64,000 bases of DNA, from the NCBI RefSeq assembly GCF_015999335.1, contig NZ_JAEACP010000016.1, forward strand, positions 1 through 64,000, read 5' to 3'. Of the stretch, positions 5,737 through 37,981 are shown piece after piece (positions within the stretch are counted from its first letter, which is position 1; every line of letters begins with the position of its first letter). The notes beneath the pieces were generated by a model. It did not search any database. It was not told the origin of the DNA and worked only from the letters and a program-made list of their open reading frames with translations. The translations under genes and the position numbers were made by a program. The stretch comes from Tabrizicola soli (GTDB lineage: Bacteria > Pseudomonadota > Alphaproteobacteria > Rhodobacterales > Rhodobacteraceae).

Positions 5737-6201
5737 TCAGGGCGTGGCGCGGAGGAGCATTCGACGTGGCAAGAAGCCTTCGGAGCGGAAGAAGGCATGG
5801 GCCTCGTGGTTCCCCTCCCAGGTATCCAGCAGGATCTCGTCGACCCGAAGCTCGCGGGCAAGGGCGCGTGCGGCCGCCAGCAGCGCCTTGCCATGGCCCT
5901 GCCGCCGGGCCTCGGGGGCGACGGCGATGTGGTCGATCATCAGGCGGCGGATCGTGGGCGAGAAGATCGACGCCTCACGCTCTTGCAGGCTGCAGAGGGC
6001 ATAGCCGACCGCAGGGTCGCCGGCCAGGAAGGCGGTGACGGCGGGGTCGGCCAGGCGCGCGGCGAAATGGGCGGTCAGTGCCTTGGGGTCGGGATGGGGG
6101 TGGAAGGTGTCGGGGTAATGTTCCGCGTGCCAACCCTGCAGGTGGGCGTTCAGCCAGGCGAGGGTCGCCGCGTCCTTGGGTTCGGCGCGGCGGGGGATCA
6201 T
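5737..6201 (-). CDS. GNAT-family N-acetyltransferase
   Basis: A 154-residue acetyltransferase. The acetyl-CoA loop follows the GNAT pattern ([17 protein letters not shown], about residues 92-108), with [18 protein letters not shown] as the final motif. Its start overlaps the dnaX stop by 4 nt, so it is coupled to dnaX and inserted into the dnaX-ybaB-recR cluster. The substrate is unknown; RimI-like protein acetylation and small-molecule acetylation are both possible. Confidence 0.85.
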
Positions 6202-7943
6202 TCCTCGAACGGGTCCCAGTCGTCGCCGACCTCGGGTTCCGCCAGCGGCAGCGCGGCCTCGGCGGCCTGGGCTGCGATGGCCTCGGGGGCGCGGACTTCC
6301 GTGATCTCCGCGCCGGGGAAGGCGGTCAGGATCGCCTGCACCAGCGGGTTTTCCGCCGCCTCGGCCTTCACCTGCGCCAGTTCGCTGTCGCGCGCCTCGG
6401 CAATGGTGGGCGCGCCGCCGGAGGCCACGACCGAGACGCCCCAGCGCGCGCCGGTCCAGCCTTGCAGGCGCTGGCCGAGGCGGGCGGCAAGGTCGGGCTT
6501 CGCGCCGGGTGCGGGCTCGAACTCGATCCGGCCGGGGGCGTAGCGGGCGAGGCGGAGGCCGGTTTCCACTTCGTTCAGCAGCAGCATGTCGCGCTTGGAA
6601 CGGATCAGCTCGATCAGCTGGTCGAAGGTGGCGTAGACCTGAAGCTGGCTTTCGGCCAGGACCGGAGCGGCGGCGGTCATGGTCGGACCGCGAGTCGGTG
6701 CAGCGTGGACCGGAGCCAGCCGTGGCGCGTGGACGGTCCCGCCGCCTGCTGGGGCGCCGCCCGGCATCCCGGCGGGACGCGGGCTGTCGGCAAGCTTCTT
6801 CACCAGAGTCTCGGGGTCGGGCAGGTCGGCGACATGGGTCAGGCGGATCACCGCCATCTCGGCCGCCATCATCGCGTTCGGCGCCAGGGAGACCTCCTCG
6901 ATGGCCTTCAGCAGCATCTGCCACATCCGCGTCAGCGCCCGCATCGGCAGGCGGGAGGCCATATCCTGCCCGCGCGTCTGCTCATCGGGCGGGGTCGTCG
7001 GATCCTCGGCCGCCGAGGGGTTGATCTTGATGACGGAAATCCAGTGCGTGATCTCGGCCAGGTCGCGCAGCACGGCCATCGGGTCGGCCCCGTCGGCATA
7101 TTGGGCGCTGAGTTCGGCCAGGGCGGTCGCGGCGTCGCCCTTCATGATCAGATCGAAAAGGTCCAGCGTGCGGCCCCGGTCGGCGAGGCCCAGCATGGCG
7201 CGGACCTGGTCGCCCGTCGTCTCCCCTGCCCCATGCGCAATCGCCTGGTCCATCAGGCTCATCGCGTCGCGGACCGAGCCTTCGGCGGCGCGCGTGATCA
7301 GCGCCAACGCGTCGGGGGCGAGCTTCGCGCCCTCGAGCTCGGCCACCTTGGCGAGGTGGGCCATCATCACCTCGGGCTCGATCCGCTTCAGGTCGAAGCG
7401 CTGGCAGCGCGACAGGACCGTGACGGGGACCTTGCGGATTTCGGTGGTGGCGAAGATGAATTTGACGTGGGCGGGGGGCTCCTCCAGCGTCTTCAACAGC
7501 GCGTTGAAGGCGGCGGTCGACAGCATGTGCACTTCGTCGATGATGTAGACCTTGAAGCGCGCGGAAGCGGCCCGGTAGTGGACCGAGTCGATGATCTCGC
7601 GGATGTCGCCGACCCCGGTGCGGCTGGCGGCGTCCATCTCCATCACGTCCACATGCCGCCCCTCGGCGATGGCGCGGCAGGGTTCGCAGACCCCGCAGGG
7701 CTCGGTCGTGGGCCCGCCGGTGCCGTCCGGGCCGACGCAGTTCAGTCCCTTGGCGATGATCCGCGCCGTGGTGGTCTTGCCGACCCCGCGCACCCCGGTC
7801 ATCACGAAGGCATGGGCGATGCGGTCGGCCGCGAAGGCGTTCTTCAGGGTGCGGACCATCGCCTCTTGCCCGATGAGGTCGGCAAAGGTCTGGGGGCGGT
7901 ACTTGCGGGCAAGGACTTGGTAGGCGGGAGTCGCGTCAGTCAT
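6198..7943 (-). CDS. dnaX: DNA polymerase III subunit gamma/tau
   Basis: The clamp-loader ATPase, 581 residues. It contains Walker A (TGVRGVGKTTTAR, ~49-61), a zinc-binding cysteine set (CGVCEPC), Walker B (DEVHMLS) and the LLKTLEEPP sensor region. The C-terminal third is less conserved and corresponds to the tau-specific part that contacts the polymerase and helicase. It starts a leftward unit with GNAT, ybaB and recR. The ~100 bp to the divergent GST gene must contain both promoters. Confidence 0.95.
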   Translation of the reverse strand: MTDATPAYQVLARKYRPQTFADLIGQEAMVRTLKNAFAADRIAHAFVMTGVRGVGKTTTARIIAKGLNCVGPDGTGGPTTEPCGVCEPCRAIAEGRHVDVMEMDAASRTGVGDIREIIDSVHYRAASARFKVYIIDEVHMLSTAAFNALLKTLEEPPAHVKFIFATTEIRKVPVTVLSRCQRFDLKRIEPEVMMAHLAKVAELEGAKLAPDALALITRAAEGSVRDAMSLMDQAIAHGAGETTGDQVRAMLGLADRGRTLDLFDLIMKGDAATALAELSAQYADGADPMAVLRDLAEITHWISVIKINPSAAEDPTTPPDEQTRGQDMASRLPMRALTRMWQMLLKAIEEVSLAPNAMMAAEMAVIRLTHVADLPDPETLVKKLADSPRPAGMPGGAPAGGGTVHAPRLAPVHAAPTRGPTMTAAAPVLAESQLQVYATFDQLIELIRSKRDMLLLNEVETGLRLARYAPGRIEFEPAPGAKPDLAARLGQRLQGWTGARWGVSVVASGGAPTIAEARDSELAQVKAEAAENPLVQAILTAFPGAEITEVRAPEAIAAQAAEAALPLAEPEVGDDWDPFEE

Positions 7944-22575: not shown

Positions 22576-23295
22576 TCAGGTCTTCTTGCCCGAAGGGCCG
22601 ACGCCGCTTTCGCTTCCCGTGCTGCCGCCCATGCTCGAGCCGCTGGAGCCCGCCCCACGGTTCTTGCGCCAGTCCTCGAATTCGGTATCGAATTTCTTCT
22701 GGCGCTCTTCGTTGAAGGCCCGGTAATCCTCGTCATGGGCCTGCATCTGCCGTTCGCGCCAGTTCTGGTAGTGCTGGTCATGGCCCATGCGGCCATGCTG
22801 TCCCTGCTCTTGTCCGGACTGACCGTAGCCACCCTGGCCGTAGCCCGACTGGTACCCGCGCTGACCCATGCCCTCACCATAGCCGGACTGACCGCGGCCG
22901 CCTTGTCCATAGCCCGAATGATAGTCCTCGTACCCGCCTTGCCCATATCTGGATCGGCCCGGGCCCTGCTGGTCGCCAGAATAGCCTTGGCCCTGGTACA
23001 TCCCGCCCCCGGATTCGCCATAACCCCGGCCTTGTCCGTATCCGGACTGCCCGCGCGAGCCATAGCCGCCGGGACGGCCGTCTTCCGACCAGTCGCCACG
23101 GGACGAGCCGTAATCGTCCTCGTCATCCCGACGCGAGAATCCGGAAGCGCCGCGCCGTAGATCGCGCTCATCCTCCGGATAGCCGCGCCCGAACGATCCG
23201 CCCCGACCCCGAGAGCTGCCCCGCATGGAACGCTCGTCGCTTCGCCCGCGATACGAGCCCATGCGCTGGTCGTCGTCGTCATATCGTTGTGCCAT
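22576..23295 (-). CDS. Low-complexity Gly/Tyr/Gln/Arg-rich protein
   Basis: A 239-residue protein. The first ~60 residues are Arg/Asp-rich. The middle (~70-165) is a disordered tract of GYGQ-type repeats (SGYGQGRGYGESGGG, SGYGQGGYGQSGQ), much like the prion-like domains of eukaryotic FUS-type proteins. The C-terminal part (~170-215) has a conserved-looking helical module, YQNWRERQMQAHDEDYRAF, which I have seen in proteobacterial stress-related proteins of unknown function. There is no signal peptide or enzyme motif. A strong GGAGAGA site precedes the ATG. A probable EcfG promoter 70-95 bp upstream suggests general-stress control. Confidence 0.75.
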   Translation of the reverse strand: MAQRYDDDDQRMGSYRGRSDERSMRGSSRGRGGSFGRGYPEDERDLRRGASGFSRRDDEDDYGSSRGDWSEDGRPGGYGSRGQSGYGQGRGYGESGGGMYQGQGYSGDQQGPGRSRYGQGGYEDYHSGYGQGGRGQSGYGEGMGQRGYQSGYGQGGYGQSGQEQGQHGRMGHDQHYQNWRERQMQAHDEDYRAFNEERQKKFDTEFEDWRKNRGAGSSGSSMGGSTGSESGVGPSGKKT

Positions 23296-23577: not shown

Positions 23578-24201
23578 CTAGATCAGCCCCACCCCCTGCG
23601 CGATGGTCACGGCATGGGCCCGGTTGCGGGCCTGCAGCTTCGCGAAGATCGTGCGCAGATGCATCTTCACCGCCATCTCGGTGCTTTCCAGCGCCCGGGC
23701 GATTTCCTTGTTGGTGCGGCCCTCCTGCACCAGCTTCATGATCTGCGCCTGAAGCGCGTTCAGCACCGGCCGCGCCTCGGCACCCTGCCCCTGCGGCGGG
23801 CCCTCGGCACTCCCGGCGGGCAGGAAGACCTCTCCCGAACACACCAGCCGCAGCGCCGCCGGCAGGGACCGCAACGGCATGGTCTTGGGAATGTAGCCCG
23901 CGGCCCCGGCGTTGACGGACTTGAGCGCAAACTCGGTCGAGACATTTCCCGAGAACAGCACCACCTTCGCGCCATTCGCCGCAGCGATGACCTGTGCGAT
24001 GCTGGGCAAACCGTCCATTCCCGGCATCATGAGGTCCAGCAGGACGAGGCTGAAGCTCTGCTCCCCAAGGGCCGCAAGAACTTCGTCGAGGCAGCGTGTG
24101 GTGCGCGCGACGAAATCACCCTCGCGCAGCAGGATGTGGGCCACCGCCTCGGCCACAAGGATATGATCGTCGGCAATAAGGACGTCGATGAATTCGGACA
24201 T
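23578..24201 (-). CDS. NarL/LuxR-family response regulator (fibre locus, distal)
   Basis: A 207-residue two-component regulator. The receiver domain has the acidic pocket (ADDH), the phospho-acceptor Asp in LVLLDLMMPGMDG (~57) and the conserved Lys in GYIPKTMPL. A LuxR-type helix-turn-helix occupies ~140-200 (GRTNKEIARALESTEMAVKMHL). No histidine kinase is adjacent, so it is an orphan here. It lies just beyond the terminator of the fibre operon. The motif CTGACCGAACGATC in its promoter region recurs in the fibre operon promoter, which points to shared or cross regulation. Confidence 0.9.
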   Translation of the reverse strand: MSEFIDVLIADDHILVAEAVAHILLREGDFVARTTRCLDEVLAALGEQSFSLVLLDLMMPGMDGLPSIAQVIAAANGAKVVLFSGNVSTEFALKSVNAGAAGYIPKTMPLRSLPAALRLVCSGEVFLPAGSAEGPPQGQGAEARPVLNALQAQIMKLVQEGRTNKEIARALESTEMAVKMHLRTIFAKLQARNRAHAVTIAQGVGLI

Positions 24202-24370: not shown

Positions 24371-24401
24371 AGGAAAAAGGGCGCCCGGAGATCCGGGCGC
24401 C
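24371..24401 (-). terminator. Rho-independent terminator of the fibre operon
   Basis: A GC-rich 10-bp stem (GGCGCCCGGA / TCCGGGCGCC, 24380-24401), read leftward, is followed by CTTTTTCCTTT on the minus strand. It lies 130 bp after the stop codon of the last fibre-like gene and upstream of the distal response regulator, separating the two units. Confidence 0.75.
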
Positions 24402-24532: not shown

Positions 24533-25423
24533 TCACGGCGCGACCGCGACGATGAGCCCGTCGTTCACGGCCCCGAGGACCGTGGGGGTAATGGCGCCGA
24601 CCCGCACCGCGACCCGTTCCACCTGCAGCCGCACCGCACCAGTGACGTCCTGCGCGTTGCTGCCCAGGTTCAGCGCGACCAGCGAGGGGCCGTCTCCGCC
24701 CGAGATAAGGCGGCTCGACTGCGCCAGCGCCTCGACCCCGCCGGCCGCGATCGCCTGGTCGATGCGTCCCGTCGCCCCCATGGTCACCGAGGAAAGGTCG
24801 GGCACCAGCGCCTCGGATGTCAGCCCGCTCAGCACCGTGCCTGCGTTCGACACGCCCAGCACGGTCGAGGCAAAGACCCGCCCGGTGGCTGCGGTAACGG
24901 CCCGGTCGGTGACGGCGGTCGCGCCCAACTGCGCGAACTGCAGGTCGTCGGCCAGGGCGGCAATGCCGATGCGTCCGTCGACCCGTCCCGCGATCAGGCC
25001 GCGCGCCTCGCGCAGCGCGCTGCCCTGCGCATCCTGTTGCCAAAGCGACAGCTGCCCGGCCGGCGGCAGCGAATAAAGCGCGCTGCCCACCGGATAAAGT
25101 CCCCGCGCCAGCCCCGAGACAATGCCGCCCGCCGCCGCGTCGTCGACCACAAGACCCGTCGCCCCCGCCGTGGCGGTGACGGGATTGCCGAGGGCATCGA
25201 AGCCCACAACCACCTCCTGCCCCGGCTGAAGCGTGAGCGCGGCGTCGTGCAGCCCCTCCATCGCGATGGCCGAGTTGATGAACACGCCCGCGAAATCCTG
25301 CGCCTCGATCAACCGGAGCACGCGCTCCAGGATCGAGCCGCTGGCCCGGGCCGGGGGCGCGCTGGCCACCAACGCGGCAACGACCAGAAGATGGCAGGAC
25401 AAAACCGAAGCGGTTCGCAGCAT
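24533..25423 (-). CDS. Secreted fibre-like repeat protein, third paralogue (HfaD-like candidate)
   Basis: A 296-residue secreted protein with a signal peptide (to about PPARAS). The mature start GSILERVLRLIE is shared with the two paralogues upstream. It is the most divergent of the three, but keeps two copies of the TVLG motif (STVLGVSNAGTVL near 190 and PTVLGAVNDGLI at the C-terminus), rich in Val, Gly, Ala, Asn and Thr and free of cysteine. The composition suggests beta-strand stacking. It is the last gene of the CsgG-linked operon. The role as a fibre or anchor subunit is inferred from context. Confidence 0.7.
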   Translation of the reverse strand: MLRTASVLSCHLLVVAALVASAPPARASGSILERVLRLIEAQDFAGVFINSAIAMEGLHDAALTLQPGQEVVVGFDALGNPVTATAGATGLVVDDAAAGGIVSGLARGLYPVGSALYSLPPAGQLSLWQQDAQGSALREARGLIAGRVDGRIGIAALADDLQFAQLGATAVTDRAVTAATGRVFASTVLGVSNAGTVLSGLTSEALVPDLSSVTMGATGRIDQAIAAGGVEALAQSSRLISGGDGPSLVALNLGSNAQDVTGAVRLQVERVAVRVGAITPTVLGAVNDGLIVAVAP

Positions 25424-25444
25424 GTCGGACCTCCCTGCCTTGGG

Positions 25445-25469
25445 GCCCCCGGCCTTGCGGGCCGGGGGC
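25445..25469. promoter_or_regulatory. Strong intercistronic hairpin between fibre genes 2 and 3
   Basis: A perfect 10-bp stem GCCCCCGGCC / GGCCGGGGGC with a 5-base loop, in the 55-bp gap between two fibre-like genes. No T-run follows. Such hairpins often protect or attenuate mRNA to set subunit ratios. Confidence 0.6.
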
Positions 25470-25478
25470 GGTTGGGTC

Positions 25479-26390
25479 TCAGTTCGTGCCGACGATGCCC
25501 GACTGGATACCGTTCACGGCCGCGTTCACACCCGAGGTGATGGTGCCGGTGTTGACCGCGCCGAGGACAGTGGTCGCCACGTCGCCCATGCTGCCGTTCA
25601 GGCCGGTCATGGTGGTGTTGACCGAGCCGATGATGTCGGTGGCGTTCGACGCCACGTTCAGCACCAGCGCGGCCGAGTCGACGGAGCCGCCCAGTTGCTC
25701 GATCGCGGCCGAGACGGCCGAGGACGAACCGGCGATCGCTTCGCTCACGTCCTGGTTCACGCCCAGGGTGATCTCGCCGGTGTTGACCGCGCCGAGGACG
25801 GTGGTGGCCATGTCGCCCAGGTCGACCGTGACCTGATCCAGCGCGATGACCGTGCCGCCCACGTCGGCGGTGGCGGTGGTCACCCCCGTCAGCGTGTTGG
25901 TGATCGAGCCGTCGATCGCCGTCATCATGGTCAGCGGCTCGACGAAGCTGCTGGTATAGCCGGCAGTGGTCGCCCAGTCACCGAAGTCGGCGAAGTCTGC
26001 GGTGGCATCGGCCGCAGCCGCTGCGTCCGCTAGGGCCTCGGTGTCGTAGTTGACGCCGTCGTAGACCCACTTGTCGCCGCCAACATCGGCGCCGTTCGTG
26101 TCGGTGTAGGTGACGTTACCCTGTGCGGTGGTGACCGCTGTGGCCAGCGCAGCGTCATAGGCGGCTTCCATCTCGGCAACGGTCACCACGGCGTCGTCGG
26201 CATCGGTCCAGACCGTGCCACCGGCGGTGGTGCCGATGTTCTCGGCGATGTTGGCGAAGACGCCGTTCACCTTCTCCATGTTGGTGTTGCCGTCGATCGT
26301 GCTCAGGACGCGCTCCAGGACGGATTGCGCCTGCGCGCCGCCGGCGCTCAGGGCCAGGCCAAGGGCCGTGGTCAGAAGCAGTTTGTTCAT
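25479..26390 (-). CDS. Secreted fibre-like repeat protein, second paralogue (HfaD-like candidate)
   Basis: A 303-residue secreted protein. A signal peptide (residues 1-21, ending GGAQA) leads to QSVLERVLSTIDGNTNMEK. Two repeats, ATTVLGAVNTGEITLGVN (~194) and ATTVLGAVNTGTITSGVN (~271), flank a Val/Asn-rich segment. It is nearly identical to the first paralogue apart from an extra acidic, Ala/Asp/Thr/Tyr-rich block of about 95 residues (~55-150). There are no cysteines. Stacked beta-strands forming a surface fibre are likely. It is co-oriented with a CsgG-family pore gene, as with curli and holdfast-anchor proteins. Confidence 0.75.
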   Translation of the reverse strand: MNKLLLTTALGLALSAGGAQAQSVLERVLSTIDGNTNMEKVNGVFANIAENIGTTAGGTVWTDADDAVVTVAEMEAAYDAALATAVTTAQGNVTYTDTNGADVGGDKWVYDGVNYDTEALADAAAAADATADFADFGDWATTAGYTSSFVEPLTMMTAIDGSITNTLTGVTTATADVGGTVIALDQVTVDLGDMATTVLGAVNTGEITLGVNQDVSEAIAGSSSAVSAAIEQLGGSVDSAALVLNVASNATDIIGSVNTTMTGLNGSMGDVATTVLGAVNTGTITSGVNAAVNGIQSGIVGTN

Positions 26391-26412
26391 CTCGAACCTC
26401 TTGTGTTGGGGG

Positions 26413-26439
26413 ACCCCCGCGACCCTGCGCCGCGGGGGT
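26413..26439. promoter_or_regulatory. Strong intercistronic hairpin between fibre genes 1 and 2
   Basis: A perfect 9-bp stem ACCCCCGCG / CGCGGGGGT with a 9-base loop in the 60-bp gap. It is unrelated in sequence to the hairpin at 25445 but identical in placement. Confidence 0.6.
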
Positions 26440-26450
26440 GGGGTTCATGC

Positions 26451-26810
26451 TCAGTTCGTGCCGACGATGCCCGACTGGATGCCTTCCACCGCCGAGTTCA
26501 CGCCCGAGGTGATGGTGCCGGTGTTGACCGCGCCAAGGACCGTGGTCGCCACGTTGCCGAGCGAGCCGTTCAGCCCGTCGAAGGTGGTGTTGACCGAGCC
26601 GATGATGTCGGTCGCGTTCGACGCCACGTTCAGCACGATCGCCGAGGTGTCGGCCGAGCCGCCCAGCTGGTCGATGGCGTTCGAGACGGCCGAGGAGGTG
26701 CCGGCGATCGCTTCGCTCACGTCCTGGTTCACGCCCAGGGTGATGTCGCCGGTGTTGACCGCGCCCAGAACCGTGGTGGCCATGTCGCCCAGGTCGACCG
26801 TGACCTGCTC
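26451..26810 (-). repeat. Duplicated coding segment shared by fibre genes 1 and 2
   Basis: About 360 bp at the 3' end of the first fibre gene closely match 25479-25840 in the second, including silent positions, for example GTTCGTGCCGACGATGCCCG at both gene ends. This indicates a recent tandem duplication or ongoing gene conversion. Confidence 0.75.
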
Positions 26811-27080
26811 GACGGCCGTGACGGCGTTGTTCACATCGGCGGTCGGACCATCGAAGCCGCTCAGCAGGTTGGTGATCGAGCCGTCGATGGCCGTCAGCAT
26901 CTCGCCGGTTTCACCCACGGTGCCGATGTTCTCGGCGATGTTGGCGAAGACGCCGTTCACCGTTTCCATGTTGGACGAGCCGTCGATCTGATCGAGTACC
27001 CGCTCGAGAACCGACTGGGCGGAAGCCGCGCCCGACAGGGCGACAAGGGCCAGAGCGGTAGTTGCAAGGAGTTTCTTCAT
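26451..27080 (-). CDS. Secreted fibre-like repeat protein, first paralogue (HfaD-like candidate)
   Basis: A 209-residue secreted protein. A signal peptide ends at SGAASA, and the mature part begins QSVLERVLDQIDGSSNMET. Two ATTVLGAVNTG repeats (~100 and ~177) occur with DIIGSVNTTFDGL between them, and the C-terminus is GIQSGIVGTN as in the second paralogue. I chose the ATG at 27080 because AGGAAAC lies 7-8 nt upstream and a signal peptide follows at once. It is the first fibre-like gene after the CsgG-type pore. The family is unnamed to my knowledge; comparison with HfaD is by position and style, not by proven homology. Confidence 0.75.
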   Translation of the reverse strand: MKKLLATTALALVALSGAASAQSVLERVLDQIDGSSNMETVNGVFANIAENIGTVGETGEMLTAIDGSITNLLSGFDGPTADVNNAVTAVEQVTVDLGDMATTVLGAVNTGDITLGVNQDVSEAIAGTSSAVSNAIDQLGGSADTSAIVLNVASNATDIIGSVNTTFDGLNGSLGNVATTVLGAVNTGTITSGVNSAVEGIQSGIVGTN

Positions 27081-27105
27081 CTGAAGTTTCCTGTCCTGAT
27101 TGACC

Positions 27106-27127
27106 GTTTCCCACCCCCATGGGAAAC
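27106..27127. promoter_or_regulatory. Hairpin in the leader of the first fibre gene
   Basis: A perfect 8-bp stem GTTTCCCA / TGGGAAAC with a 6-base loop, ending about 26 nt before the start codon at 27080, so it could affect ribosome access or mRNA decay. Confidence 0.45.
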
Positions 27128-27163
27128 AGCGATTGCACCCGGCGCGAGGAGGGGCCGGTCTTG

Positions 27164-27190
27164 CCGTTCGGGTGTGGGGCACCCGAACGG
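27164..27190. promoter_or_regulatory. Hairpin between the CsgG-like gene and first fibre gene
   Basis: A perfect 11-bp stem CCGTTCGGGTG / CACCCGAACGG with a 5-base loop, 28 bp after the stop codon of the CsgG-like gene. Without a T-run it is more likely an attenuator or mRNA-stability element than a terminator. Confidence 0.55.
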
Positions 27191-27217
27191 ATGGTCGATG
27201 AAGCGGCCCGGCCGCCT

Positions 27218-28549
27218 TCAGGGTGTCGGCATGCCGGTCCCTCCAAGCTTCTTGTCATCCGGTCCCGGCGCGCCGGGCGACTCGGGTGTCGGGGCGGCGG
27301 CGGCCTTGGCCTTGGCCAGGCGGCGGGCCTCCTGCGCGACGGCGATGGCCTGTTCCACCAGCGTGGCGGCGGCGTCGCCCTCGGGGCCGGTCAATCCGGC
27401 GGCCGCAGCCTCTTTCAGCGTCTTGACCGCCATGGCCATGTTCATTTCCGCTTCCCTCGCCGCCTTGTCGGCCTCCTCGGCGGTCTTGGAGCGGGCGGCG
27501 CGGTCGGCGGCGGCAATCGCCCTTGCGGCATAAGCCGTGGCGTTGCCCGCCAGCTGGCGGGCCTCGGGTGGGCTGGCCGCAGCGGATTTCTGCGGGGCCG
27601 GTTGCGGGGCGGGGGCCGCGCTGGCCGGGGCGGGCCCTCCCCCGCCCGCCCCGGTCGGGGCCGCACCCGCTGCCGCAGGTGGCCCCTTGCGCGCCGCCGC
27701 CGCCTCGTCCGCCGCGGCGGTGATCTCGCGAAGTGTGCTGCCATCCCCAGACGACAGCATCCCGCTTGGCGCGGCGTCGATGGACCTGATCTCGGCCCGG
27801 CAGGCGGCCGCGGCATCCGCGTCCAGCGTCTGCGCCAGAAGCTCGAACACGGCATAGCTCATCATCTGGCGCAGCGTCAGTTGCAGCGCCTCGCGCTCCA
27901 TCCCGCCGATATCGGCCTCGACCAGGGTTTCACCGAGGTAGCGGCTGGTCTCGAAGCCGATTTCCTTCTCGTAAAGCTGCTTCTGCAGCGGGACATTGGC
28001 GACGACGCGGCCCGTGTTCGCATCGGTCAGCGCCAGATCGAGTCCGATCAGGACGCGGTTCTGCCTGTAGCGCGGGCCGACGCCGGCCACGCTCAGCTCG
28101 GCCCCGCCGCCGGGGATGAAATCCAGGCTGTTGATCGAGCCCGAGATGAACAGGTCGGCCGGAATCTGGGTGCGGATGTTGCGGATGCCCCAGTTGTTCT
28201 CGGCCAGGGGAATGTTGGGGTCGCGGCGGTTCACCACCGTCAGCCCGGCCCGGAACAGCGCCGACTGCACCATGTCGCCCGCACCCTGCGACACCAGCTT
28301 GCCGGTGCCGCTGTCCGCATATTGTTCCTTGCCGGTGGTGTCGGCGATCGTCCCGACCCCGAAGGACAGGCGCTCGGGGAACTTTCCCTTCATGCAGATC
28401 AGCGCCCGGTCGAAGTCGGTCACGATGTCCTGCATCGGCGGGCCCTTCACGATCTCGGCGTTCTTTCCTTTGGGCGTGACTGCGCCCGGTGTCGGCACCG
28501 CACAGGCCGCAAGGGCCAGCAGAAGGTACAGGGCCAGGGTCGGGCGCAT
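27218..28549 (-). CDS. CsgG/HfaB-family outer-membrane secretion lipoprotein
   Basis: A 443-residue lipoprotein. The lipobox is LLALAAC (Cys near 16). Residues ~40-260 form a CsgG domain (ERLSFGVGTIADTTGKEQYAD; GAGDMVQSALFRAGLTVVNR; RVVANVPLQKQLYEKEIG). CsgG makes a nonameric pore that exports curli subunits, and HfaB is the holdfast-anchor version. Here the chain continues for another ~180 residues that are Ala/Pro/Gly-rich and then helical (AARAIAAADRAARSKTAEEA), which curli CsgG lacks. It lies between an HfaA-like gene and three secreted repeat proteins, the order of hfaA-hfaB-hfaD in Caulobacter. Confidence 0.85.
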   Translation of the reverse strand: MRPTLALYLLLALAACAVPTPGAVTPKGKNAEIVKGPPMQDIVTDFDRALICMKGKFPERLSFGVGTIADTTGKEQYADSGTGKLVSQGAGDMVQSALFRAGLTVVNRRDPNIPLAENNWGIRNIRTQIPADLFISGSINSLDFIPGGGAELSVAGVGPRYRQNRVLIGLDLALTDANTGRVVANVPLQKQLYEKEIGFETSRYLGETLVEADIGGMEREALQLTLRQMMSYAVFELLAQTLDADAAAACRAEIRSIDAAPSGMLSSGDGSTLREITAAADEAAAARKGPPAAAGAAPTGAGGGGPAPASAAPAPQPAPQKSAAASPPEARQLAGNATAYAARAIAAADRAARSKTAEEADKAAREAEMNMAMAVKTLKEAAAAGLTGPEGDAAATLVEQAIAVAQEARRLAKAKAAAAPTPESPGAPGPDDKKLGGTGMPTP

Positions 28550-28551
28550 GG

Positions 28552-29124
28552 TCAGGGGATCGCGCAGGCCGAATTCACCTGACCGCTGTCCGTCACGGTG
28601 ACATAGGGCAGCGTATAGCTGCTCCCCAACCCGCCATAGGCATTGGCATCGGCCGCACCCGGCGAGGTGGTGGTCGCGCTGTGCACGATCGAGCCGTCCA
28701 CGCAGCCCGAAGATTCGGCGGTGTTGTTGGCCACCAGGCTGTTGTTGTCCCCCTCGACCGTGATCGTGGTCGAGCCGGTGTTCAGCGCGCCCACCGAATA
28801 GGTCTGTTCGCCGATGGCATCGCCGATCTGGGACGAGCCGCTGATCGTGCCGCCGCCCGAATCCATCTCGATGTAGTTCGAGCGGTTGTCGTTGTAGTTG
28901 TTCGTATTGTAGACGACCTGCGGGTCGCCCTCCTCGGCGTTGCGGATCGCCTCGGCCCGCTGCAGGGCCACGCTGCGGTCACTGGCGGTGTTGAAGCCGA
29001 AGACGCCGGCCCAGCTTTGCCCGGCGCTGGAATAGTTCTGCGCCGCAGCGGGGGCGGAGACCGCAAGGATCAGCGAGGCCGCAAGTCGCAGCGACCGCAG
29101 GGGGAGATGGCGCGCGCGGGTCAT
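28552..29124 (-). CDS. HfaA-like secreted curlin-related protein
   Basis: A 190-residue secreted protein with a signal peptide to about APAAAQ. The mature part is Ser/Asn/Gly/Thr-rich and has a curlin-like strand pattern (TTITVEGDNNSLVANNTAES). Two cysteines (SSGCVDG and NSACAIP) may form one disulfide. Its place directly ahead of the CsgG/HfaB gene, 2 nt away, and its overall plan match the Caulobacter holdfast-anchor protein HfaA. Its ATG overlaps the stop of the upstream lipoprotein gene by 4 nt. Homology is suggested, not proven. Confidence 0.6.
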   Translation of the reverse strand: MTRARHLPLRSLRLAASLILAVSAPAAAQNYSSAGQSWAGVFGFNTASDRSVALQRAEAIRNAEEGDPQVVYNTNNYNDNRSNYIEMDSGGGTISGSSQIGDAIGEQTYSVGALNTGSTTITVEGDNNSLVANNTAESSGCVDGSIVHSATTTSPGAADANAYGGLGSSYTLPYVTVTDSGQVNSACAIP

Positions 29125-29528
29125 TTGCCGAACTTGTCGAACGAGATATCGCCGGTTTCCCGATCGATATGGACACCAGTCTTGTCCGTGCCGGCGACGA
29201 CCTCACGGTCGTTGATCCCCGCATAGGTCTCCTTGGTGTTGGCGGTCACCACGCCGGGCGGCCTGCGCGGCGTCGGATTCGGATTCGGTGTCGGCGTCGG
29301 ACCCGGCTGCGGGTCGGGCAGATCCGGCGAAACGGGCGGGACGGCTGGAACCACGACCGGGCAGGGAACCAGATAGGGATCCCACTTGTCCTGTGAAAGC
29401 ACGTAACCCGCCGGCGGCGCCTGTACGCAATAGACCACCTGCTCGGAGGTCAGCGGCCGCTGCGGCGCGCAGCCCATGAGTGCAATGCCGGTTATGGTCA
29501 GCAAGACGATCTGATATTTCGGCATCAT
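29121..29528 (-). CDS. Small Pro-rich lipoprotein heading the fibre operon
   Basis: A 135-residue protein with a lipoprotein signal (GIALMGC, lipidated Cys near 20). It has two further cysteines (VVYCVQ and LVPCPV), then a Pro/Thr/Asn-rich linker of about 35 residues (PTPTPNPNPTPRRPPG) and a C-terminal segment ending DISFDKFGK. The linker suggests a tether across the periplasm or at the outer membrane. Its end is fused by a 4-nt overlap to the HfaA-like gene, so it is probably a structural or chaperone part of the same apparatus. I do not recognise a family; it might stand in for CsgE/CsgF-type factors. Confidence 0.65.
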   Translation of the reverse strand: MMPKYQIVLLTITGIALMGCAPQRPLTSEQVVYCVQAPPAGYVLSQDKWDPYLVPCPVVVPAVPPVSPDLPDPQPGPTPTPNPNPTPRRPPGVVTANTKETYAGINDREVVAGTDKTGVHIDRETGDISFDKFGK

Positions 29529-29879: not shown

Positions 29880-30524
29880 TCAGACCAGGCCCAGATCACG
29901 CGCCAGCACGACAGCATGCGTCCGGTTGTGCGCGCCCAACTTGCGACAGATCGCGGTGACGTGCATCTTCACCGTCGGCTCGGCCAATTGCATCTCGACG
30001 GCAATGGCCTTGTTCGTCTGCCCCTCGACGAGATACTCTAGCACCTTGTTTTCCCTTTCGCTCAGCTCGCTCTTGCGTGCTTCGCGCAGCTGCTCGGAAC
30101 TGCGGCGCATCAGTTCCATCGGCAAGTAACGCTCGCCCGCGTGCATGAAGCGGATCGCATTTGCCAGACTGCGGAACGGTGTCGTCTTCAGCACGATTCC
30201 CGCAGCAGCCGAGTTCAGAATCTCGTCCGTCATTCGCGCAGTAGGGCTGCTGGTGATGATACCGACCGGATTACCATGGTTCAGCCTCACCATCCGGCGC
30301 AGGCCTTGGACACCGTTCATTCCGGGCATGTTGAGATCGAGCAGCACGACGTCATAGGGCCCGCTCTGCTGGACCTGAAGCACTGCATCGTCCAGGTCGT
30401 TCGCCACGGCCACCTGTAATCCCGCAGATGTGGAAAGGAATAGCGCGAGCATATCCAGAATCATCCGATGGTCATCGGCAATCAGAACGCGCAGTTTCCT
30501 CGTGGGCAGATCGGATTCGGTCAT
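29880..30524 (-). CDS. NarL/LuxR-family response regulator (fibre locus, proximal)
   Basis: A ~214-residue orphan response regulator. The receiver has ADDH, the phospho-acceptor in VVLLDLNMPGMNG (~55) and a Lys in GIVLKTTPF. The LuxR-type DNA-binding domain is at ~150-205 (LVEGQTNKAIAVEMQLAEPTVKMHV). I prefer the ATG at 30524 because the receiver fold begins right after it; one at 30563 would add 13 residues. It resembles the distal regulator at 23578 in layout, so the two bracket the fibre operon. It reads in the same direction as the operon but is separated by 351 bp. Confidence 0.9.
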   Translation of the reverse strand: MTESDLPTRKLRVLIADDHRMILDMLALFLSTSAGLQVAVANDLDDAVLQVQQSGPYDVVLLDLNMPGMNGVQGLRRMVRLNHGNPVGIITSSPTARMTDEILNSAAAGIVLKTTPFRSLANAIRFMHAGERYLPMELMRRSSEQLREARKSELSERENKVLEYLVEGQTNKAIAVEMQLAEPTVKMHVTAICRKLGAHNRTHAVVLARDLGLV

Positions 30525-31226
30525 CGGATTTTCTCGCTGTGCAAGTAGTTTGTAGGACTGCATCTAATTTGAAGCGGGGCACATATTTGACGCTGGGGAG
30601 TCCTATTGGTCATTGCCGGATCATTCCGGGACTGGCGGTCGGCCAATAGTTGGTCCTTGGCATAACTTTCGTGATGCCATGCGATGCCGCCGGGTGGACT
30701 CCACTCCATCGGTAACGCTGCCAAAACCTTCGCCACCAGCAACCGTATCCGTCAGGGCGCTGGAGCCACCCGTTTCTGACGGTTCTTGCATGGGGTCTTC
30801 GTAAGGATGACGCGCTTTCCGGCGACAGCCGTGACCTTCTGCGGTTTTCCGGCGTTGCGGAGGATCTCAAGCCTGGATTCCGATAGCGGGCCGCCGCCGC
30901 CTACTTCGGATCAAAACACGAAGAGGCGGGCGCTGGCGCGGCGCATTGGATGTCATCCTGCGCCGGATGTGGGTCGAGGGCAGCGATTTCCGTGCCAATG
31001 GCCCGGCGCCGAATGCGATCCGGGGAAAGAGGTCGCCACCTGCCGCCCCAATTGCATACCATAAGAGATATTGGCCATCGCGGGCACGCCGATCGAGCAC
31101 CATGGATAGGATGAACACCACCGGATATCCACATCCCCCCTTTTGAAACGTTGCGGGACTTCGTGCGGATCGGATTTCTATGGCGGGCTGCGTTGGGCAG
31201 CCAACCAGAGGAACCCGTAGAGATTC
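30525..31226. other. Intergenic region, no supported gene
   Basis: About 700 bp with divergent promoters for the response regulator and the outer-membrane protein. One inverted repeat, CCGTCAG at 30749 and CTGACGG at 30776, could form a hairpin with a 20-base loop. The short open frames here have no recognisable sequence. A small RNA cannot be excluded. Confidence 0.4.
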
Positions 31227-32830: not shown

Positions 32831-35800
32831 TCACCTTCCCCCGCGCCTCCGAAACACCAGTTCCGGCAGGACGGTCTCCCATTCGTCGCGCTTGAGGTAG
32901 CTCTGGTAGCTCTCTTCGTTGTCTGATCTGCGCCAGCGCACTATCGCGCCGATCTTTCCGCTCACGAGATCAGTTCCTTCGGGTGGCGCCCAGTTCCCGG
33001 ACATTCGGCCCAGCACCTGGCGCCTGGCGTCCAGGATCATCCACTTGCCGTCGCGCCAGTCCAGAGTGACCCGCTCATCCACGTTCGCCGCAGAAATGGC
33101 GGCAAGGGTTGGGCTGGTCTCGGGCAGCCGACCTGCGTAGGAAAGGTCCACCGACGTCAGGTCGGGCACCTGATACTGATCGGGGTCCGGAAGGTCCTGC
33201 CGGGGCGGCGTCTCGACCTTGCGCAGCACTTCGCTGTCGCTGTCTGCCCGCACGAAGGCGTGCGCTCCGCTTGTCACGACGGCCAGACTGCGGCGCGCGC
33301 GCGTCATGGCCACGTAGAACAACCGACGTGGCGCTTCGCCGTCTTCGCCGTGCGAAAGTGCCTTCCAACCGCCGTTCAGGATTACCACATGGTCGAACTC
33401 CAGGCCTTTTGACCGGTGCGCGGTCAACAGCAGCAGCCCCCTCTGCGCGCTGCGGATGTCGCGCGACCATTCCGCCAACCAGTCGATCGCATCGGGGACC
33501 GGAATGGTCTTCCTGCCAAGTTCTCGCGCAAGTCCGGCGACGCCTTCGGCGATCAAATCGACCCAGCGGTTTTCGGGCTGCCGGTTCAGCACATCCAGAA
33601 TGTTCTGGATGGTCAGCATCGTCGTCAATCGGGTCCGCAGGGCTGCGACGAGGCGCTGCATCTCGCGCAGGCGCCAGACGCTCGGCAGCTTCTCGTTGGC
33701 CATCTCCACTGGCAGCCCAAGCCTTTCGGCATAGGCGCGGACCGGGCCAAGCCTTCTCCAGTCGCGGGAGATGATCGCGGTGCGCGTCCAGCTGAAGTCG
33801 GGATCGAGCCGCGACAGGCGCACCAGCTCGTCCACCGCCGCCACGGCCTGAGCCGCGTCGTCGCCCGCCACGTCCAGGAATTGCACCCGCCCTTGGCCGA
33901 CCGGGTCAAGCCGCGCCATCGCCCCGCCGCCCGGTTCCAGGTTGCGCAGCTTGTCCACGGTGATCGGATGTCCGGCCTTCATCCGGTCGCGGGCGGGTTC
34001 GATCACCTGGTTCGCGGCGTCGATGATATAGCGTGTCGAGCGGTAGTTCTCGGTCAGAAACTTCGGCTTGGCGCGGTAGTCCTCCTCGAACCGGCGGATG
34101 AACGAGACCGAGGCGCCGGTGAACGCGTAGATGTTCTGGTCGTCATCACCTACGGCAAAGAGGCTGAGCCGCTGGTCGGGATCGTCCAGCGACCTGCCAG
34201 CCACGGCGGCGACAAGGGCATATTCCTCGGGGCCGATGTCCTGGTATTCGTCGACGAGGATCCAGCGGTAGCCCTGGATCAGCGCCTCGCGCTGCGCCTC
34301 CGCCTCGGACCGGCTGAGACCGTCGCCATTGATTAGTCTTACAGCCTCGCGCAGAATGGCGTCGAAGTCCTTCGGCTCGGTCCCTTTGCTGGCAAAGCTT
34401 GCGCCCACCAGCCGCATGGCAAGCGCGTGGCAGGTCGAGACGGTCACCCGCGCTGCATCGTTCCCGACAAGGTGGCGCAGGCGCGCGCGGATTTCCCCTG
34501 CGGCGTGGCGGTTGTAGGTCAGGACAAGGATGCCTGTCGGATCCTCGCGCCTGACCCGCAGAAGGTAGGCGATACGGTGGGCCAGGACCCGTGTCTTGCC
34601 CGAACCGGGCCCCGCCAGGACCAGCACGTTGGTCTCTTCCCGGTCGTCGGCCACGATGTCCTGCTGGGCCGGGTTCCCCAGGTCCTCGACGATTTGCTTC
34701 CAGGCGCGCCCCGTGGTCTGGCGACGGATCTCGACGTTGCGGCCCGGCATCCAGCGCCGAAGGAAAGTGTCCTGGTCGAGTGCGAAATAGTCCTCGGCAA
34801 GCTGCATCGCCTTGCCGATGTCCTGCATCCCGGTTTCGGCATAGGCGGCCATGACATGGGTCTGGACCGTCTGTTCGCGATAATGCTCTTCGAGCGGCAG
34901 GAAGTCCTTCCGGGTGAAGCCCGCACGGCTGGGCTTCAGGTGGATCGTCATCGCCGACCGAAACACAGTCAGGCCCTTGCCAAGGGTCATCACCTGCTGT
35001 TCGTGCAGCCAGAGCAGCGCGCGCTCCATCAGCTTGGTCATGTCCTTGACGCCCGCCGCCTTGATCAGGGCGTCGCCGGTCAGAGCCGAAAGCAGGTCGC
35101 CGATGGTCGTCTCGACCTGGATGTCCTTTCCTTTTGTCCCCGAAGGCACCTTGGCGATCAGGAAGTCCAGAAGCTTCTCTGCTGCCATCCAGCGCAGCTC
35201 GGCGGTTTGCGCCACCACCCGCCAGGGCCGCTCTAACGCCACCTCGACCGCCTTGCCGGACAGCTTCCGCAGCCGGATGTTGCCTTTTCCGCCGTCGCGG
35301 TCGCGCCCGTCTCGGGCAATGCTGCGCAAGAGGCGCTCCAGGATGTGGGGGCTCGGATTGTCGAGGCCATCGGTCCGAAGAACATGGGCCGCCACCGTTA
35401 GGTCAAGGGCCGCGCCGTGCTCTGCCTCCGCCTGGGGTGCCAGCTCGCGCATCCGGGCGATCAGCGCATTTTCCAGCCGCATCGCTGTCGCCATGCGCTG
35501 CCGCGACTGGTTCTCGACGCCGACATGGACCGCGACGGTCACGGCGATATCGTTGCGCGCGATACCCTGCGCTTCAAGGTCGGCCATCGCCTTGGCAAGC
35601 TCGCGGTGCGACAGCCCGCTTACCCCCGTCAGCTCGTCGGTGGTGATACCCTGATCCGGGGGCGCGTTCATCACATGACGCACTATGGTCAGAAGCTTTT
35701 GCCGATGCGCCCCGGTGATCTGAGTGCCAGCGAGACGCGCCTCTGCTTCGGCCAGGGTTCGGACCAGCAGCGATGAGGGGAAGACCTGCACGCGGTTCTC

Positions 35801-37981
35801 CTCGCGCGAGACGAGTGTGGACTCTTCCAGCCAGGACAGGGCGGTCTTGACGCGCGTGTCGTCGGTCGCGTCGTCGCGGATGAATTCGCGGTCCTTCTCC
35901 TCGCGCACGATCTCGCCCGTGGTTGCCACCACGATCCCGCTGTTGCGGCTGTGCTCATCGATCCGGCGCAGCGCCTTCAGGATCGCGCCGATCTCGTGCC
36001 GTTCCAGGCGCGAGCGGGCGGTCAGCGAGAACTGCCGTTCTACATCGTCCGGGTGGTAGAGGAGCACGCAGTGGGCAGGAGCCCGGTCGCGCCCGGCGCG
36101 TCCGGCCTCTTGCAGGTAATTCTCCAATGATCCCGGGATGTCGGCATGGACGACCAGCCGGATGTCCGGCTTGTCGATCCCCATGCCGAACGCGTTGGTG
36201 GCGGCGATCACGCGCAGCTCGCCCACCCGGAAGGCTTCCTGGACCTGGTGCTTGTCATCGGCCGTGAGCCCCGCGTGGAAGTGAGCCGCGGCGAAGCCCT
36301 GGACCTTCAGATGTGACGCGACCCGCTCGGTTTCCTTCCGCGTCGCACAGTAGACCACCGCGCCGGATTTCCCATCGGCAGGAAGATGGTCCCGGAGTGC
36401 CGTCAGGATGTCGTCCGGCTTGCTTTCCCGCCCTGTCTCGCGCACCGAGAAGCTCAGGTTCGTCCGTGTCGCGCCACCGTCGAAGAGACCGAGGTCGATT
36501 CCGAGCCGTTCACGGAAATGCGCCGTGATGTCCTGCACAACCTCGGGCTTGGCAGTGGCCGTCAGGCACAGCACTGGCGCTGGCGGCGCATCGCCCGAGA
36601 ACTCGCGGATGAAGCGGCCGATGTAGCGGTAGTCTGGCCGGAAATCGTGCCCCCATTTCGAGACGCAATGCGCCTCGTCCAGCACCCAGAGCCCGACTTC
36701 GCGCTGTTTCAGCACGGAACGCACGGACACGCTGCGCAGCTGCTCGGGCGAGATCAGCAGGATCGCCGCCTGGCCCAACCGCACGCGGTCCAGCGCGTCC
36801 TGCCGCTCGGGCATCGAGAGCATGCCGTTGATCGTCACCGCCGAGGAGATCCCGGCCCGCTCCATCCCCTGCACCTGGTCGGCCATGAGCGCCACGAGGG
36901 GCGAGATCGCCACCGTCAGCGCGCCGGTCTTGTCATAAAGGCTCAGCGCAGGGACCTGGTAGCAGACCGACTTGCCCGTCCCGGTCGGAAGGATGCCGAG
37001 GACATTCGCATGGGCCATCGTCTTGGCCACGATGACCTCTTGCAGCGGCCGGCCTGCGCTGTCGGTCGGCTGGGGCCGGAAGCCGTCGAAGCCGAACCAC
37101 CTCTTCAGCGCCCCAACAGGGTTGTTCATCGTGGCGCACCAGGTGCAGGTCGGATTTCCGCAGTTGGTATCCCGCAGGTCCCGGGCAAGCAGGGCGGCCT
37201 CGGGGAAGGCGGCGCGGACCCAGGGCGGCATCACGGATTCTCCGCCGGAAACAGAAATCCAGGCCAGGGCATAAGCCATCGGCCAACCCATCTGCGGATC
37301 GGAAAGCTCATCCAGTGCCGGCCCGATCCGTGCGCCGCAGGCCTTTCCTGTGAGAAGTGTCCTGATGGCCAAGAGCGCAGAGGCGCGGTCCGGTGCCGCT
37401 GCCTTGCGAATGTCGCGGAAGACCGAGTCGAACCCCTCGGAGCGGTCGCGGCGCGTGGCGAGATAGTGATAGGCCAACACGATCTCGGGGGATTGCGACG
37501 CAAGTTCGGTCAGTGCCCGGATCTGGTTCCTGAGCACCTCGAACACCAGCCGCGCATCCTGCTCGGGGTCGTTCACGTGTCCCGCCTGAAGCCGACCATC
37601 GTGATAGTGCTTGACCAGGTGGTGATAGGGGTTGCGCGGAAAGGCCAGCGGATTGAGCCAGAGCGTGTCGATCGGCGCAGCCAGCTTCGCAGCAAGCCGT
37701 GGCCGCGCGGCGAGCAGGTGCTCGATGTCGTGGCGCAGGATGTTGTGGCCGATAACGTGTGCCACCTTTCCCAGCGCTTTTTCAAGCTGGTCCAGCCGCT
37801 GTTCGGTCCTGCCTTTCGGCGCGAGGATGGCAGATTCACCGTCGAGCCGGACCGCAGCGATGTCGAAGATCCTGATGGTCTTCGGGTCTACTTCCAGGTC
37901 GACCGACAGGCATTTCTCCAGCAGAGGCCTTCGGTCCTCAGTCTTGAAGCGTATGAGGTTGAGAAGAGCCATCAAGTCCAA
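32831..37981 (-). CDS. Exonuclease-RecQ-UvrD triple-domain DNA helicase
   Basis: A 1716-residue protein made of three nucleic-acid modules. Residues ~25-150 resemble a DEDD 3'-5' exonuclease (SVDLEVD, Asp28/Glu30; GHNILRHDIEHL, Asp85; NDPEQDARLV, Asp142). A CGNPTCTWC cysteine cluster lies at ~274-282. Residues ~315-700 are a RecQ helicase (GILPTGTGKSVCYQ; DEAHCVSKWGHDFRPDY at 435; QEAGRAGRD). The segment ~1105-1640 is a UvrD/PcrA-type superfamily-1 helicase (LVLAGPGSGKTRVLAH; VDEYQDIGPEEY; GDDDQNIYAFTGAS; VAMTRARR). All catalytic motifs look intact. It lies in a candidate island beside remnants of defence-type genes, so an anti-phage or DNA-processing role is a fair guess but unproven. Confidence 0.85.
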   Translation of the reverse strand: MDLMALLNLIRFKTEDRRPLLEKCLSVDLEVDPKTIRIFDIAAVRLDGESAILAPKGRTEQRLDQLEKALGKVAHVIGHNILRHDIEHLLAARPRLAAKLAAPIDTLWLNPLAFPRNPYHHLVKHYHDGRLQAGHVNDPEQDARLVFEVLRNQIRALTELASQSPEIVLAYHYLATRRDRSEGFDSVFRDIRKAAAPDRASALLAIRTLLTGKACGARIGPALDELSDPQMGWPMAYALAWISVSGGESVMPPWVRAAFPEAALLARDLRDTNCGNPTCTWCATMNNPVGALKRWFGFDGFRPQPTDSAGRPLQEVIVAKTMAHANVLGILPTGTGKSVCYQVPALSLYDKTGALTVAISPLVALMADQVQGMERAGISSAVTINGMLSMPERQDALDRVRLGQAAILLISPEQLRSVSVRSVLKQREVGLWVLDEAHCVSKWGHDFRPDYRYIGRFIREFSGDAPPAPVLCLTATAKPEVVQDITAHFRERLGIDLGLFDGGATRTNLSFSVRETGRESKPDDILTALRDHLPADGKSGAVVYCATRKETERVASHLKVQGFAAAHFHAGLTADDKHQVQEAFRVGELRVIAATNAFGMGIDKPDIRLVVHADIPGSLENYLQEAGRAGRDRAPAHCVLLYHPDDVERQFSLTARSRLERHEIGAILKALRRIDEHSRNSGIVVATTGEIVREEKDREFIRDDATDDTRVKTALSWLEESTLVSREENRVQVFPSSLLVRTLAEAEARLAGTQITGAHRQKLLTIVRHVMNAPPDQGITTDELTGVSGLSHRELAKAMADLEAQGIARNDIAVTVAVHVGVENQSRQRMATAMRLENALIARMRELAPQAEAEHGAALDLTVAAHVLRTDGLDNPSPHILERLLRSIARDGRDRDGGKGNIRLRKLSGKAVEVALERPWRVVAQTAELRWMAAEKLLDFLIAKVPSGTKGKDIQVETTIGDLLSALTGDALIKAAGVKDMTKLMERALLWLHEQQVMTLGKGLTVFRSAMTIHLKPSRAGFTRKDFLPLEEHYREQTVQTHVMAAYAETGMQDIGKAMQLAEDYFALDQDTFLRRWMPGRNVEIRRQTTGRAWKQIVEDLGNPAQQDIVADDREETNVLVLAGPGSGKTRVLAHRIAYLLRVRREDPTGILVLTYNRHAAGEIRARLRHLVGNDAARVTVSTCHALAMRLVGASFASKGTEPKDFDAILREAVRLINGDGLSRSEAEAQREALIQGYRWILVDEYQDIGPEEYALVAAVAGRSLDDPDQRLSLFAVGDDDQNIYAFTGASVSFIRRFEEDYRAKPKFLTENYRSTRYIIDAANQVIEPARDRMKAGHPITVDKLRNLEPGGGAMARLDPVGQGRVQFLDVAGDDAAQAVAAVDELVRLSRLDPDFSWTRTAIISRDWRRLGPVRAYAERLGLPVEMANEKLPSVWRLREMQRLVAALRTRLTTMLTIQNILDVLNRQPENRWVDLIAEGVAGLARELGRKTIPVPDAIDWLAEWSRDIRSAQRGLLLLTAHRSKGLEFDHVVILNGGWKALSHGEDGEAPRRLFYVAMTRARRSLAVVTSGAHAFVRADSDSEVLRKVETPPRQDLPDPDQYQVPDLTSVDLSYAGRLPETSPTLAAISAANVDERVTLDWRDGKWMILDARRQVLGRMSGNWAPPEGTDLVSGKIGAIVRWRRSDNEESYQSYLKRDEWETVLPELVFRRRGGR

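Follow-up and report, generated by a model that had tools for sequence, protein, structure and literature searches.

What kind of surface structure, if any, do six closely packed genes of Tabrizicola soli build, and to which known export system are they related? The genes lie on the minus strand of a 64,000-nucleotide stretch of DNA (hereafter the window; positions 1 to 64,000 of contig NZ_JAEACP010000016.1), part of a 4.68-Mb draft genome in 57 contigs (G000). Running from 29528 to 24533, they encode a lipoprotein, an HfaA-like secreted protein, a CsgG/HfaB-family lipoprotein, and three secreted subunits (SUB1, SUB2, and SUB3). A preliminary description had taken them for a holdfast anchor or functional amyloid system with a tripled third component. 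The best-supported reading of our results is an operon that works like a CsgG/HfaB export system, and we consider it fairly likely that this is a dedicated, type VIII-like operon whose three paralogous beta-repeat subunits are exported and assembled into a surface fibre or an adhesive coat. Its features are listed below; lipoboxes and signal peptides, here and throughout, were read by eye.

29121..29528, minus strand: lipoprotein, first gene of the operon, 135 residues, lipobox MGC
28552..29124, minus strand: HfaA-like secreted protein, 190 residues, with a W..xFGF...DRSxxLxxA motif and a VGALNTG motif
27218..28549, minus strand: CsgG/HfaB-family lipoprotein, presumed outer-membrane pore, 443 residues, lipobox LAAC
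27311..27565, minus strand: pore tail domain of about 85 residues (residues 329-413), Ala-rich, conserved in clade-A pores
26451..27080, minus strand: SUB1, 209 residues, with a signal peptide, a QSVLERVL helix, and a beta-repeat domain
26994..27014, minus strand: SVLERVL heptad that opens mature SUB1, a proposed export address, matching the heptad pattern and helical in the structure model
25479..26390, minus strand: SUB2, 303 residues, like SUB1 plus an insert of about 100 residues
24533..25423, minus strand: SUB3, 296 residues, divergent paralogue with a GSILERVL start
24380..24401, minus strand: intrinsic terminator, a 9-pair stem followed by CTTTTT

All six open reading frames (ORFs) are present where they had been noted, and a codon-usage gene caller kept every one of them, giving SUB3 a later start. 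Gaps of −4 and 2 bases separate the first three genes, and the next three gaps measure 137, 60, and 55 bases, which bears out the earlier view of an operon read in one direction with short gaps. The terminator was also found as described (24401-24380), in a region where terminator-like sites are not commoner than in shuffles (4 found versus a mean of 4.6). The pore gene, the HfaA-like gene, and at least one subunit gene occur together in all 14 loci of the window's pore clade (window included), and in each the HfaA-like gene lies directly upstream of the pore gene. Because the set recurs in other genomes, we regard it as not due to chance.

We examined the pore protein by profile searches and phylogeny. 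Its proposed CsgG domain was confirmed by a PF03783 match of 45.9 bits (cut-off 20.8; E 5.5e-12), and the profile of its clade aligned with solved CsgG at 1.3e-7 over positions 48-220 of 238. With the NCBIfam HfaB model NF037935 it scored 78.2 bits, which indicates homology but lies under the cut-off of 300. In a tree of 44 CsgG domains, the window pore fell in a clade of 14 rows from the same bacterial family (support 97/92), near the base of which, according to a warning of the tree program, long branches join. The nine pores scoring above the HfaB cut-off form a separate group of nine rows (95/88); both groups lie within a larger group of 30 rows (100/99) that holds no curli-type CsgG, and the CsgG rows of the CsgF-bearing loci (L051, L052, L053, and L055) form a separate, long-branched group. 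Clade A (10 rows, weak support of 91/57) has subunits with the pattern S-x-L-x-x-x-L, and clade B (four rows, 99/95) has a single divergent subunit in each locus. The subunits of the two clades are homologous (hhalign 64.7 versus a shuffle maximum of 17.2).

Behind the CsgG domain the window pore continues for 193 residues; the extra Ala/Pro/helical tail reported earlier is thus present, and its length had been put somewhat too low, at about 180 residues. A Pfam search of this tail gave no match, and that it is helical is our guess from its Ala-rich sequence. A profile built from it recovered all ten clade-A tails, with E from 2e-35 to 2e-25, and did not match any of the 31 others, in a search that covered 41 of the 44 tails and left out three of fewer than 20 residues. 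The tail, proposed earlier as a possible substitute for CsgE and CsgF, contains a conserved domain specific to this lineage. Since clade A may be one lineage, this distribution can reflect a single gain. The C-terminus of CsgG faces the periplasm. In the HfaB-like protein of locus L084 the tail is an OmpA domain by Pfam (71.1 bits), which suggests by analogy that the tails of such proteins sit on the periplasmic side. As a separate observation, HfaB-like proteins with an OmpA-like tail occur in L084 (5777-7045) and L093 (pore gene 6165-7409, minus strand), the latter tail being read from sequence only, and a pore protein of this kind may grip peptidoglycan.

The three subunits are paralogues, as had been claimed: a jackhmmer profile seeded with SUB1 matched SUB2 at 4.4e-76 and SUB3 at 2.1e-35. 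All three also have the S-[VI]-LERVL start noticed before, while the TVLGAVNTG repeats attributed to them hold in part, TVLGAVNT occurring twice each in SUB1 and SUB2 and being replaced in SUB3 by TVLGAVND and TVLGVSNA. The heptad follows the presumed signal peptide directly, and its pattern occurs in 29 of the 31 subunits with a readable start, a count that omits one row cut by a contig end. The two misses are L036_11393 (GDALARVL) and L047_10399, whose SLLGSIL lies outside the scanned stretch. Each of the ten clade-A loci has at least one subunit, and nine have two or more; the exception is L040, with one, and in L037 the second subunit is truncated at the contig end. The closest relatives of SUB3 end the subunit arrays of L012, L013, L014, L036, and L045. 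No subunit had a Pfam match over the cut-off. Set A1 comprised 28 of the 32 subunit rows (L046, L047:12353, L036:11453, and L037:14866 were left out). An AlphaFold2 model of mature SUB1, made with 28 sequences, placed a helix at residues 4-14 and only strands thereafter, and both TTVLGAVNTG copies were modelled as a strand, a short break, and a strand. Structure prediction had been put forward as a check for a beta-solenoid; the strands behind the N-terminal helix agree with a beta-repeat fold without proving a solenoid, for which there was no usable match.

The HfaA-like protein resembles HfaA in position and, weakly, in sequence. The NCBIfam HfaA model NF037934 (cut-off 50 bits) did not match it at E up to 1 but found, as a control, three HfaA proteins from loci whose pores pass the HfaB cut-off, at 76-90 bits. 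In profile comparisons, it scored 17.3 (shuffle maximum 14.7), a weak match, against the HfaA set of such loci (L077, L078, L079, L080, and L082), and 43.6 (shuffle maximum 15.2) against HfaA-like proteins pooled from other HfaB-type loci (L084, L085, L093, L050, L091, and L089), where the match runs through an N-terminal W-x-F stretch. The label given to it earlier therefore keeps weak profile support and misses the curated cut-off. Set A2 held 14 of the 15 HfaA-like rows, without L091. The profiles of the HfaA-like proteins and the subunits have a stretch of 39 columns in common around G-[AS]-[VLM]-N-T-G, which scored 27.9 in hhalign, a value reached by none of 100 shuffles (maximum 17.7).

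The leading lipoprotein has a conserved YC..APxGYVxSQDKWDP stretch followed by a low-complexity tail, and had no Pfam match. Its profile matched at the equivalent place in L036, L013, L047, and L012, and upstream ORFs with a lipobox were seen in L037, L038, L040, L042, L043, and L044. Beside this, the head lipoprotein-like ORFs of L040 (L040_2640), L037, L038, L043, and L044 have Gly/Ala/Ser-rich, silk-like tails, where the window lipoprotein has a Pro/Asn-rich stretch.

The history of SUB1 and SUB2 bears on how the subunits may work together. The insert of SUB2 is homologous to that of the second subunit of L036 (51% identity over 81 columns, E 2e-26), and for this reason subunit 2 appears to be old. 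In a subunit tree of 30 of the 32 rows, the C-terminal repeat domains of tandem SUB1/SUB2-type genes group with their partner from the same genome in all five genomes that have such a pair (support 80/90 for the window, 96/94 for L036, 96/96 for L014, 95/77 for L013, and 95/73 for L012); the two SUB1/SUB2-type genes of genome G012, which lie on different contigs, had no resolved placement. Approximately unbiased (AU) tests, for groups chosen after the protein tree had been viewed, rejected pairing by position for the window and L036 (p 0.004 with their second subunits grouped and p 0.001 with their first) and for L012 and L013 (p 0.007). For the window pair, the DNA tree gave a support of just 75/84, and the synonymous divergence (dS) between window SUB1 and the second subunit of L036 (0.30) is nearly the same as that within the window pair (0.28). 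The repeat domains of SUB1 and SUB2 thus look homogenised within genomes, a pattern that fits concerted evolution by gene conversion and also repeated duplication with loss of the insert.

We propose the following mechanism. All cargo would cross the inner membrane by Sec, and the CsgG-family lipoprotein, given its domain homology, would form the outer-membrane pore. Each subunit would be recognised through the short helix S-V-L-E-R-V-L at its mature N-terminus, a conserved element with a putative function in export; more speculatively, the helix might dock on the conserved tail domain at the periplasmic side of the pore. Nucleation and anchoring at the surface would fall to the HfaA-like protein and the lipoprotein, and stacking of the subunits would run through the repeated strand-turn-strand motif G-A-V-N-T-G, which the HfaA-like protein also has. 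In the wide sense, the window has the feature of CsgG-type secretion, a CsgG-family lipoprotein linked to beta-repeat cargo with signal peptides.

Several results weigh against this proposal. The SUB1 model has middling confidence (mean predicted local distance difference test score, pLDDT, 61.6; predicted TM-score, pTM, 0.43); compared with PDB, it gave one Foldseek match, to FapC, at E 5.6 and probability 0.00, and it had no VIA-align match with Z of at least 2. A sequence search with SUB1 for solved structures likewise returned only chance-level matches (E 0.12 and 0.28). The model of the HfaA-like protein was too poor for use (pLDDT 43.2), and hhalign's own probability for the motif common to this protein and the subunits is only 17%. 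A candidate coupling between heptad and tail divergence (partial r 0.46, reached by 105 of 5000 permutations) was rejected, as it is gone without the L039/L047 branch (−0.11). Export, fibre formation, and the role of the tail are inferred.

The proteins might instead reach the surface without forming a fibre, the subunits being separate, non-polymerising adhesins or coat proteins that a CsgG-family pore exports. The subunits differ in length and insert, and the SUB1 model lacks a clear fibre or solenoid match, as this alternative would have it. In both named Gemmobacter loci, large RTX-repeat proteins directly follow the subunits (L012 10311-14897, with 28 matched stretches; L013 10631-14917, with 26), which fits a surface role; the window has no such RTX-repeat protein after its array. 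However, the motif common to the HfaA-like protein and the subunits, together with the similarity of the repeat domains within genomes, suggests that these proteins bind one another, and we hold the alternative to be unlikely.

About equally unlikely is a true holdfast anchor, HfaA-HfaB-HfaD with its third gene tripled, tying a polar polysaccharide holdfast to the cell. The roles of the three proteins in Caulobacter are described in PMC6707917. The window resembles that system in its gene order (A, B, third component) and in combining a CsgG-family pore protein, a small HfaA-like secreted protein, and beta-repeat cargo, and both the 30-row group of the pore tree and the weak link to the HfaA set speak for kinship. 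Yet the window proteins miss the curated HfaA, HfaB, and HfaD cut-offs. The HfaD model NF037936 (cut-off 100 bits) matched no subunit at E up to 1 and found nothing in the whole window genome, although it scored a protein beside an HfaB-like gene in the same bacterial family (L048 10123-11214; 1e-13, 51.4 bits, below the cut-off) and therefore can reach this family. Against an HfaD-type set, the subunits scored 13.5 in hhalign, which 2 of 100 shuffles reached and which we treat as background; the comparison is limited by the set itself (L076, L077, L080, L082, and L048), in which only L076 (the G485 protein) passes the cut-off, the others scoring 51.4, 48.9, and 17.9 bits and one not at all. 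HfaD identity of the subunits was accordingly not supported, and the tripled holdfast anchor of the preliminary description was not borne out. The window type differs further in its multiple subunits, in the tail domain of its pore, and in the separate clade to which that pore belongs. Polysaccharide-synthesis genes were not evident by eye among the ORFs at 20.1-38.0 kb; no search was made for them. Other Alphaproteobacteria have HfaB-like pores beside HfaA-like proteins (L084-L091 and L093), with different cargo (AIGN-type repeats in L086-L090) and different tails, for example the OmpA domain of L084. One of them, L090 (G051:C1), belongs to a genome with five HfaB-like genes, three of them in a single 19-kb stretch and each followed by its own AIGN-repeat protein.

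We regard it as very improbable that the CsgG-domain protein is a periplasmic lipoprotein scaffold rather than a pore, with the beta-repeat proteins as envelope proteins. PMC3521004 places CsgG in a wider family with non-curli members and also reports that Alphaproteobacteria lack csgE, and the OmpA-domain tail of L084 shows that such proteins may work at peptidoglycan; the alignment with solved CsgG over most of its length speaks against a scaffold.

Profile searches supported the earlier statement that csgE and csgF are not recognisable in the window genome: CsgF (PF10614) was found in none of 12 operon carriers (G000 included) and in all four curli-type relatives searched alongside, and CsgE (PF10627) in none of 16 genomes, with a positive E. 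coli control. As the four curli-type relatives were among those 16, the absence of CsgE does not discriminate here. CsgE and the N-terminus of CsgA have roles in curli export. A divergent curli system is the least credible explanation and scarcely to be entertained, as the CsgG domain, the beta-rich cargo with signal peptides, and the LuxR-type regulators nearby (as csgD in curli) are set against a window genome that has neither CsgE nor CsgF nor any curlin repeat (PF07012; E. coli control positive), and against the separate branch of the CsgF-bearing loci.

The fibre or coat reading can be taken a step further, to a third CsgG-dependent fibre class beside curli and holdfast anchors, in which the pore's own periplasmic adaptor would read the S-V-L-E-R-V-L helix on several subunits whose stacking domains gene conversion keeps similar, allowing co-polymerisation. 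This version is tentative, and we think it rather doubtful.

The distribution of the operon is patchy, since pore-domain matches occur in 20 of 394 genomes of the same family (E up to 0.001), 10 of them, including G000, at E below 1e-70, and within the genus the pore profile matches 3 of 32 genomes, one weakly (1.4e-11). The G379 match (E 2.5e-22) is a fragment at a contig end, and its row was dropped; G012 gave no pore match and yet has subunit genes on its contigs, one of which ends inside such a gene. By the subunit gene, Gemmobacter lanyuensis and G. lutimaris are the closest named relatives, and NCBI places the three named relatives in Paracoccaceae. A plasmid collection held no copy of the subunit; the pore matched nine of its records, one closely, namely plasmid pDY25-D from Pacificitalea manganoxidans (48.9% identity, 52% query coverage), whose length and coordinates identify it as clade-B locus L043. 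Five Vibrio alginolyticus plasmid records have pore matches, of which one was inspected; its locus (L103 4821-7150) has a CsgG/HfaB-family gene near parA/parB, two small genes of unknown function, and an Hpt-domain gene. Judged from titles and abstract openings, no paper was recognised as describing the present operon.

Two regulators flank the operon:

29880..30563, minus strand: NarL/FixJ-type response regulator RR2, upstream of the operon (PF00072 75.3 bits, PF00196 72.4 bits, both above the cut-off)
23578..24201, minus strand: NarL/FixJ-type response regulator RR1, downstream of the operon (PF00072 70.5 bits, PF00196 46.1 bits)

From their position, they probably control its expression. 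Six of the 14 loci (the window, L012, L036, L038, L047, and L043) have a NarL-type regulator at most 9 kb from the pore gene, a count affected by several contigs that end near this gene, and a homologue of RR1 directly follows the subunit array in L036 (8e-57) and L038 (4e-40). The neighbourhood in L036 also includes a hybrid histidine kinase and a protein with a molybdopterin-binding oxidoreductase domain. On the Pacificitalea plasmid, the annotated genes include those for a response regulator, a molybdopterin-dependent oxidoreductase, and an ATP-binding protein. Next to RR1 in the window is a Gly/Tyr/Gln-rich, low-complexity ORF of 239 residues (22576-23295, minus strand), and farther upstream of the operon a 1716-residue ORF (32831-37981, minus strand) reads by eye as an exonuclease-RecQ-UvrD helicase fusion.

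Taken together, the operon is probably a distant relation of curli and of the holdfast anchors that has building blocks of its own and an additional domain on its pore. At least two CsgG-linked systems of different kinds occur in its bacterial family, the window type and the CsgF-bearing curli-type loci, and the operon adds a family of candidate fibre proteins that have no Pfam match above the cut-off. Cargo choice by CsgG-type pores is known mainly from curli. One helix common to otherwise unlike subunits, and a tail domain present on all ten of their pores and absent from the others searched, make the heptad and the tail a candidate address-and-reader pair for this choice. With the motif shared by the HfaA-like protein, they make the idea of CsgG/HfaB-type export testable.

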